Part shown: in pieces, positions 10,918-63,405 of the stretch
How the letters are laid out: every line of letters begins with the position of its first letter
How positions within the stretch are numbered: position 1 is the stretch's first letter
Assembly (NCBI RefSeq): GCF_003269425.1
Contig: NZ_CP030104.1
Location: forward strand, 868,001-932,000
Direction of reading: 5' to 3'
DNA: 64,000 nt
From: Flagellimonas maritima
GTDB taxonomy: Bacteria > Bacteroidota > Bacteroidia > Flavobacteriales > Flavobacteriaceae
Program-made: the position numbers and the translations under genes
Notes under the pieces: model-generated
Database searches by the model: none
What the model was told of the DNA's origin: nothing
Seen by the model: only the letters and a program-made list of their open reading frames with translations

Positions 10918-11017
10918 CTTCTTTAAATTAAAAAGTGCGATTATGAATTAAGGCTTATCCTTCGATAATCAATAAAGCACCTTTTTGAAAACCCTATCGG
11001 GTACGTAATTATTAAAA
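10918..11017 (-). promoter_or_regulatory. Structured leader between rpsK and rpsD
   Basis: The 100-base spacer contains, in transcript order, ACCC-GATA-GGGT (10991-11002), a long-range stem pairing AAAAAGGTGC (10977-10986) with GCACTTTTT (10930-10938), and inside it TTATC-GAAG-GATAA (10955-10968). The unusual length for this operon and the nested stems suggest a regulatory leader, perhaps an S4 autoregulatory site. That role is inferred. Confidence 0.4.
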
Positions 11018-11410
11018 TTAAACTCTTCTTCTTTTGGGTGGTCTACAACCATTGTGTGGCAATGGTGTAACATCTATTATTTCGGTAACTTCTATTCCTG
11101 AATTATGAATAGCTCGTATTGCAGACTCTCTACCGTTTCCGGGGCCTTTAACATAAACCTTCACTTTTCTAAGACCTGCTTCGTGTGCTACTTTAGCACA
11201 ATCTTCCGCAGCAACTTGGGCTGCATAGGGTGTGTTCTTTTTTGAACCTCTAAATCCCTGTTTACCAGCAGATGACCAAGAAATTACATCTCCCTTTTTA
11301 TTTGTCAAGGATATGATGATGTTATTAAATGAAGCGGTAACATGTGCCTCACCTGTAGATTCTACTACTACCTTGCGCTTTTTAGTTGTTTTAGTGCTTG
11401 CCTTTGCCAT
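11018..11410 (-). CDS. rpsK: 30S ribosomal protein S11
   Basis: This 130-aa platform protein of the small subunit has the conserved [15 protein letters not shown] and [13 protein letters not shown] segments and ends in a basic [13 protein letters not shown] tail. Order and length are standard. The 105-base spacer between it and rpsM is filled by an inverted heptad-repeat array. Confidence 0.97.
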
Positions 11411-11415
11411 ATTTG

Positions 11416-11515
11416 TTAGTTTCTAGTTGTTAGTTCTTAGTTATTGGAATCCTAGACTTTTACATTTCGAACAGATTCTTCTAACGTCTAAATACTAATG
11501 ACTACTATCTAATTA
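11416..11515. repeat. Inverted heptad-repeat array in the rpsM-rpsK spacer
   Basis: The left arm has four in-phase units of the type yTAGTTn at 11416-11443 (TTAGTTT, CTAGTTG, TTAGTTC, TTAGTTA). The right arm has five units of the type CTAnnnn at 11481-11515 (CTAACGT, CTAAATA, CTAATGA, CTACTAT, CTAATTA), which are broadly the reverse complement of the left units. About 37 bases separate the arms. The array fills almost the whole spacer and would be transcribed. Confidence 0.75.
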
Positions 11516-11890
11516 TTATTTAGTTGCTTTCTTTTTATTGGCAACCGTTTTTCTTTTTCCTTTTCTTGTCCTAGAGTTATTCTTGGTACGCTGGCCCCTT
11601 AAAGGCAATCCCGATCTATGGCGAATTCCACGATAACACCCAATATCCATCAATCTTTTGATGTTCAATTGTGTTTCTGAGCGGAGTTCACCTTCTATAG
11701 TGTAAGAAGACACGGCCTCTCTTATCCTTCCTATTTCGTCGTCATTCCAGTCCGAAACTTTGGTATCTACACTTACTTGTGCCTTTTCCAAAATTTCTTC
11801 GGCCCTACTTTTGCCAATTCCGTAAATGTAGGTAAGTGAAATAACTCCACGCTTTTGTTTAGGTATATCTACACCTGCGATTCTTGCCAT
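11516..11890 (-). CDS. rpsM: 30S ribosomal protein S13
   Basis: This 124-aa head protein of the small subunit contacts the P-site tRNA and 5S-L5 bridge. It has the conserved [10 protein letters not shown] start, a helix-two-turn-helix region ([15 protein letters not shown]) and the [29 protein letters not shown] basic tail. It is preceded by rpmJ with a two-base gap. Confidence 0.97.
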
Positions 11891-12230: not shown

Positions 12231-12235
12231 ATTAT

Positions 12236-12299
12236 TTAGTTGTTTGTTTTTTCGTTGCTGTTGTTGGCTTTACCATCAACTATCAACTATTAACTAACT
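12236..12299. repeat. Inverted heptad-repeat array in the secY-infA spacer
   Basis: The right arm has units CAACTAT, CAACTAT and TAACTAA at 12277-12297. The left arm (12236-12270) is a degenerate GTTG-rich series in 7-nt steps (TTAGTTG, TTTGTTT, TTTCGTT, GCTGTTG), opposite in orientation. The array fills the transcribed spacer and touches the secY stop codon. Confidence 0.65.
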
Positions 12300-63262: not shown

Positions 63263-63405
63263 AAGGTCCGTTGTTCGTTGTTCGTTAAAACATATATTAT
63301 AAATCAATTTTATAAAATCAAAAAGTCCAACAGCCTAAAAATCCAACAATCTATTTTAAGACTATTTTTCTCAATACTCAATTCTAAAATCTCATATCTA
63401 AGCCA
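63242..63405. repeat. Heptad-repeat array overlapping the purE end
   Basis: The left arm has three GAGGTAA units (63242-63262), then AAGGTCC, two GTTGTTC and GTTAAAA. The right arm (about 63322-63405) has in-phase units such as AAAGTCC, AACAGCC, CCAACAA, TCAATAC, TCAATTC, TAAAATC and TCATATC. Read on the other strand, the right arm starts with GATATGA/GATTTTA/GAATTGA and goes inward to TTGTTGG, mirroring the left arm's GAGGTAA then GTTGTTC order. Confidence 0.65.

Follow-up and report, generated by a model that had tools for sequence, protein, structure and literature searches.

The spacer between the ribosomal protein genes rpsM and rpsK of Flagellimonas maritima consists of two inverted arms, each built in 7-nt steps, on either side of a 46-nt core that is nearly invariant in the genus. 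It lies in the window studied here, that is, the whole 64,000-nucleotide stretch of DNA analyzed, which covers bases 868001 to 932000 of the genome (Table 1). The element has a set place, from the rpsM stop codon to the rpsK start codon, and among congeners it alternates with gaps of 8 to 12 nt. Its strongest signal comes from the non-heptad core rather than from the heptads, and this core is strongly constrained, yet has been repeatedly gained or lost. As an explanation we tentatively favor, at somewhat less than an even chance, an intercistronic RNA hairpin that would hold the stop and start codons close together and whose conserved apex would be read by a protein; such a hairpin may preserve or control the translation of rpsK.

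Table 1. Features of the rpsM-rpsK junction and of a related spacer in the same operon (window positions)
Feature	Position	Strand	Remark
Whole intercistronic element, 105 nt	11411..11515	-	rpsM (S13) stop to rpsK (S11) start
5' arm (gene strand), TTAGnnn-type heptads directly after the rpsM stop	11486..11515	-	
46-nt conserved core, GTTAGAAGAATC...GGATTCCAATAAC	11440..11485	-	between the two arms
GAATC, 5' side of predicted apical stem, pairs with 11447-11451	11474..11478	-	fold prediction
GATTC, 3' side of predicted apical stem	11447..11451	-	fold prediction
3' arm, AACTAnn-type heptads up to the rpsK start codon; first 3 bases overlap the core	11411..11442	-	
rpsM, ribosomal protein S13, upstream gene	11516..11890	-	Pfam PF00416
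rpsK, ribosomal protein S11, downstream gene	11018..11410	-	Pfam PF00411
secY-infA spacer, same operon: TTAGTTA ATAGTTG ATAGTTG ... AACAACT, without the core	12231..12297	-	

An earlier, sequence-only reading had placed inverted heptad arrays in this spacer, within a ribosomal protein operon. The S13 and S11 genes identified by Pfam on either side agree with that location, and the bounds of 11416 to 11515 given there are corrected to 11411 to 11515. On the plus strand, the heptads of the low side read TTGTTAG TTTCTAG TTGTTAG TTCTTAG TTATTGG and those of the high side CTAACGT CTAAATA CTAATGA CTACTAT CTAATTA. The proposed count of four units against five in a common 7-nt step is borne out (four to five on the low side, exactly five on the high side), as is the inverted orientation of arms that are reverse-complementary in pattern. 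The heptads do not fill the spacer as had been claimed, since about 46 nt in its middle (11440 to 11485) belong to the non-heptad core. No coding frame is open in the spacer, which by eye has stops throughout.

The 7-nt step is distinct in the spacer and common in the genome. Tandem Repeats Finder (TRF) gave a period of 7/14 at 11413 to 11442, the lag-7 match within the spacer reached 21/28, and shuffling each arm separately gave P values for lag 7 of 0.013 (arm after rpsM) and 0.003 (arm before rpsK). Across the 64-kb window, seven lag-7 peaks reached at least 19/28; the other lags from 4 to 13 had 0 to 4 each, and lag 14, a multiple of 7, had 4. Lag 7 also gave the most peaks in 464 kb sampled from the genome (19 at ≥19/28, compared to 14 for lag 21 and 13 for lags 6 and 14), and 17 of these 19 were intergenic according to crude open reading frame calls. 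One of the 17 is a direct array of the CAACTGT/CATCAGT type at 17 to 128, downstream of the gene at 131 to 1078. At another locus (L004:7442-7584), a perfect tandem ATTAGCA array is followed by a TACTGAC-type array immediately before a start codon.

To follow the element in the genus, we searched 60 Muricauda-like congeners and obtained S13 from 55. The rpsM-rpsK junction was readable at 55 of the 56 loci tried (L107, at a contig edge, was left out): 40 had a spacer of about 100 to 140 nt with the core, and 15 had gaps of 8 to 12 nt. With BLAST, 41 of the 60 genomes each gave a single strong match (E ≤ 1.6e-26), all remaining matches having E ≥ 9.9e-4. All 40 strong-match loci that were parsed lie between rpsM and rpsK; the 41st (genome G007) is at a contig edge. 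Of the 40 element-bearing species, 39 have an identical core, and the single substitution is in the F. maritima genome itself. Fourfold-degenerate sites of rpsM and rpsK in the same 40 species have a mean identity of 0.58 (780 pairs). The columns of the predicted apical stem show no variation in the alignment. A GC-rich side hairpin occurs in the 3' arm of five congeners (L027, L028, L029, L034, and L049), with one match per genome by pattern and a second, weaker one in G042.

The sequence-only reading had named two observations that would speak against it. Poor assembly is ruled out, as the genome is one contig of 3,772,469 bases and the element recurs in 40 of the 55 parsed congeners. An unrelated short spacer in relatives is what the 15 congeners with 8- to 12-nt gaps have and what the other 40 do not. 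The element is dispensable because these 15 live without it.

Could replication slippage and template switching account for the arms, with heptad arrays growing and inverting without function? The many-unit, mostly intergenic heptad arrays across the genome point that way, and heptamer repeats are known from Bacteroidetes and Cyanobacteria, as described in the available part of MacGregor (2015; PMC4679880). We nevertheless consider slippage improbable, because it leaves unexplained both why a nonrepetitive 46-nt core should be unaltered in 39 of 40 species and why the element recurs at one and the same junction of genes in many genera.

Presence and absence of the element require seven changes on the tree of the flanking genes, at least five of which are forced by well-supported branches (compared to 13.3 in shuffles). 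Two sister species illustrate one such change: the locus with the element (L092) and the one lacking it (L097) have flanks that are 92 to 100% identical per 50-nt window, and therefore the spacer alone was exchanged. Both the number of changes and this swap suggest that a small palindromic element, mobile or passed on laterally and similar to miniature transposable elements (MITEs) or repetitive extragenic palindromes (REPs), would replace operon spacers. It would be tolerated because it can fold, and its core would be what a candidate mobilizer recognizes. Other palindromic inserts at atpA-atpG in congeners and the patchy occurrence among genera (17 of the 77 named loci that were parsed) fit the same idea. 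However, the core was found only at ribosomal-operon positions and usually in one or two copies per genome, and the element has no clean insertion boundary, as the empty spacers hold bases that the full ones lack. Element distances, moreover, track gene distances (Mantel r = 0.35, P = 0.001; 37 of the 40 species, with 3 dropped for rpsK length), and therefore much of the inheritance was vertical, with the core almost unchanged. Taken together, we regard mobility as rather unlikely.

At the family level, BLAST matches at E ≤ 2e-9 were present in at least 84 of the 299 genomes; the count is a minimum because at most three candidates per genome were scored. Two more (G298 and G214) had weaker scores and a core that could be read, and another (G218), missed by BLAST, was found with a covariance model. 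The core is usually present in one or two copies per family genome. We parsed 114 family loci (L212, L213, and L221 were left out), picked mostly for their matches, so the following counts are not frequencies. The core lay between rpsM and rpsK in 76; 31 loci had spacers of 8 to 46 nt and 7 had other long spacers. A copy preceded rpsM in 13 loci, 2 of which had none before rpsK. The spacer at L175 holds a variant of the core, and in the rpmJ-rpsM copy at L122 the 3' arm is broken by some 30 nt of unrelated sequence. In a set of 80 loci from named genera, 77 were parsed (L275, L281, and L300 were dropped). The core was present in 17, among them Muricauda, Kriegella, Cellulophaga, Winogradskyella, Lacinutrix, Algibacter, and Tamlana. 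Another 55 had spacers of 5 to 33 nt (e.g., Flavobacterium, Maribacter, Robiginitalea, and Mesonia), and 5 had other long spacers. The core match of L233 falls outside its 15-nt spacer. In the genus and family searches, all copies of the core that were read lie at ribosomal-operon positions.

The inverted 7-nt layout also occurs without the core. Lag 7 was the best lag in 31 of 33 5' arms and 27 of 33 3' arms among distinct genus spacers; for 126 distinct spacers, it was the best among lags 4 to 13 in 111 of the 5' arms and 109 of the 3' arms. At six loci (L149, L150, L154, L164, L173, and L283) the core is absent and opposed arms in a 7-nt step are made of other units. In genome G184, inverted 7-nt spacers without the core precede rpsM and rpmD. 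The sequence-only reading had suggested that units might change among relatives while the phase is kept; the step and the inversion are indeed kept, whereas the phase is not strictly so, as the 3' arm slips by 1 to 2 nt in many congeners. The secY-infA spacer of the same operon had a fold z score of −3.48, a rod P value of 0.01, and arm-swap ranks of 13 and 4 of 17.

A covariance model of the element matched 22 of 296 genomes of the order at E ≤ 1e-3. In seven of these the best match was at the rpsM-rpsK operon (E ≤ 1.1e-15); five of the other 15 were read, and all five matches lie between genes for ATP synthase alpha-type and gamma subunits. The atpA-atpG spacer of F. maritima (L331) has the same inverted-heptad design. 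Among 29 congeners, we assigned the atpA-atpG spacers by eye to 8 of 12 to 30 nt, 6 inverted heptad rods, and 15 palindromic inserts (29 of 30 loci parsed, with L328 dropped; L342 was classed only in part). The 15 inserts are GTCATTCC...GGAATGAC palindromes (e.g., L326, L332, L333, and L343). Two further spacers of the F. maritima genome look similar in design by eye, their genes being named via Pfam: hisB-hisH (arm lag-7 P values of 0.070 and 0.003) and accB-accC (rod P = 0.03, with no significant lag). In 91 ordinary spacers, lag 7 reached significance in the first arm 8 times, in the last arm 12 times, and in both arms 3 times; other lags did so at most 7, 5, and 2 times, respectively. The spacer at 63263 to 63404 carries heptads at either end (both P = 0.003), but its arms do not pair (ranks 16 and 17 of 17). 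Of its two neighboring genes, one is for an AIR carboxylase (purE-like), and the other matches the oligopeptidase N-terminal domain weakly, below the cutoff.

Folding of the arms in RNA is supported but unproven. The sequence-only reading had suspected an unusual stem. In relatives, the predicted fold is indeed a rod of 3- to 6-bp helices with small internal loops; the F. maritima copy, however, barely beats its shuffles (z scores of −0.64 and −1.03), and clear covariation is absent. The mean z score was −0.69 in the genus and about −2 in the family sets, and z was below zero in 124 of 126 distinct spacers, whose sequences are related to one another. In 26 chosen spacers, the mean hairpin span was 0.77, compared to 0.64 in shuffles. 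The rod was longer than in 95% of shuffles in 12 of these 26, compared to 8 of 114 ordinary spacers of the F. maritima genome. Those below the 95% mark were L148, L150, L154, L160, L237, L306, L323, L324, and L342, as well as both clade B rods, the atpA-atpG spacer of F. maritima, and the two GTCATTCC types. The exterior path after folding was hardly shorter than in shuffles (about 18 to 25 versus 20 to 25).

Pairing between arms was better with the native partner than with a swapped one in 17 spacers (P = 0.0016), in line with a joint change of units in both arms; these spacers were hand-chosen, so that the result is support and not proof. The nine rpsM-rpsK spacers gave P = 0.006, the others P = 0.069, and spacers of the F. 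maritima genome only P = 0.30. RNAalifold found a double change in 0 of 15 pairs, most of which are invariant, and a scan of all columns for covariation yielded no convincing nested compensation. As a test for a ribosomal protein leader, covariation is thus divided, with column scans against and whole-arm tests (lag, rod, and swap) for. We dropped a general, genome-wide rod rule: symmetric helical steps of 7 nt were not significantly enriched (21 versus 16.5 expected), and ordinary spacers were not enriched for spanning hairpins.

In the hairpin explanation that we favor, the spacer would be transcribed as part of the rpsM-rpsK message, and its arms would form an imperfect rod of 3- to 6-bp helices and small internal loops, with about 7 nt per step. 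The rod would loop the spacer out, leaving the rpsM stop about as close to the rpsK start as with a short gap. With stop and start kept close, terminating ribosomes would therefore still be able to serve rpsK. The apical core is a putative sequence-specific protein site, judging from its conservation. Its most plausible reader would be a ribosomal protein of the same operon, acting by feedback on rpsK translation; where a copy precedes rpsM, the feedback would extend to that gene.

A rival explanation is a leader specific to S11. On 16S rRNA, the site of S11 is helix 23, at the 690 loop, and a core mimicking this loop would let S11 repress its own gene, in keeping with the position directly before rpsK and with the string GAAAT common to core and loop. 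Copies before rpsM are left unexplained by an S11 leader, which we judge most improbable. We rejected mimicry of the 690 loop: when seven core variants were locally aligned to the rRNA stretch of the F. maritima genome, the 690 window was beaten by 19 to 136 of 1,150 windows (shuffle P values of 0.24 to 0.84). A signal in DNA serving rpsK-rpsD-rpoA-rplQ, for example an internal promoter or a protein-binding site, seems very improbable as well. Sequence conservation does exceed structural covariation, as such a site would predict. Bacteroidota promoters are of the type TTTG, about 19 nt, TAnnTTTG; none of this type was seen by eye on the gene strand of the core. The 3' arm, furthermore, runs to the start codon, and lineages lacking the core retain inverted arms.

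A wider reading would make such rods a general device of Flavobacteriales: sequence-flexible, with inverted 7-nt arms, they would splint long gaps within operons that are essential (those for the ribosome, ATP synthase, biotin carboxylase, and histidine), so that stop and start stay side by side and translation is coupled, the rpsM-rpsK apex being rRNA-like and read by a regulator. Bacteria of this group hardly use Shine-Dalgarno sites. We think this reading unlikely as a whole. The core is nonetheless a testable way into translation coupling within Bacteroidota operons: a noncoding sequence of 46 nt lacking an Rfam model sits at an essential gene junction, is far more conserved than expected under neutrality, and yet is lost or absent in a quarter of congeners. 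Heptamer repeats, long described without a function, may have a structural role as opposed arms of RNA rods.

Among known systems, the element resembles ribosomal protein leaders in being a conserved cis element adjoining a ribosomal protein gene. No Rfam model matches it up to E = 10. The S4-Flavobacteria leader (RF03141), which lies at 10939 to 10970 before rpsD, is likewise a cis element in the same operon and bacterial order; it differs in being a 33-nt hairpin before rpsD that lacks heptad arms. REP/MITE-like palindromes are a class found in intergenic regions. The palindromic inserts in operon gaps (GTCATTCC...GGAATGAC at atpA-atpG, 15 of 29 congeners) recall them, and the rpsM-rpsK element shares their turnover between close relatives. 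It does not share their many dispersed copies, as 41 of 60 congeners have a single strong match each, and unlike them it has a core found only at ribosomal-operon junctions and arms of degenerate heptads. The short tandemly repeated repetitive (STRR) sequences of cyanobacteria are intergenic and tandem with a heptanucleotide period. The rpsM-rpsK element shares this period in intergenic DNA and differs in being inverted and in having, at a single essential gene junction, a core that is conserved. Closest in step are the heptamer direct repeats TAACTGA and related sequences, which the available part of MacGregor (2015; PMC4679880) describes as AACT-type units in a 7-nt step, directly before start codons, also inside ribosomal protein operons and in some Bacteroidetes. 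That part of the paper reports one heptamer in direct repeat, one inverted case, and no predicted fold. Neither exact TAACTGA nor a single heptamer in direct tandem occurs in our element, whose units are degenerate (TTAGnnn/AACTAnn). Thus, so far as that part of the paper goes, the two share the 7-nt step, AACT-type units, and a position before start codons and within ribosomal operons, whereas the rpsM-rpsK element sets opposed degenerate arms around a core and spans the gap from stop to start.
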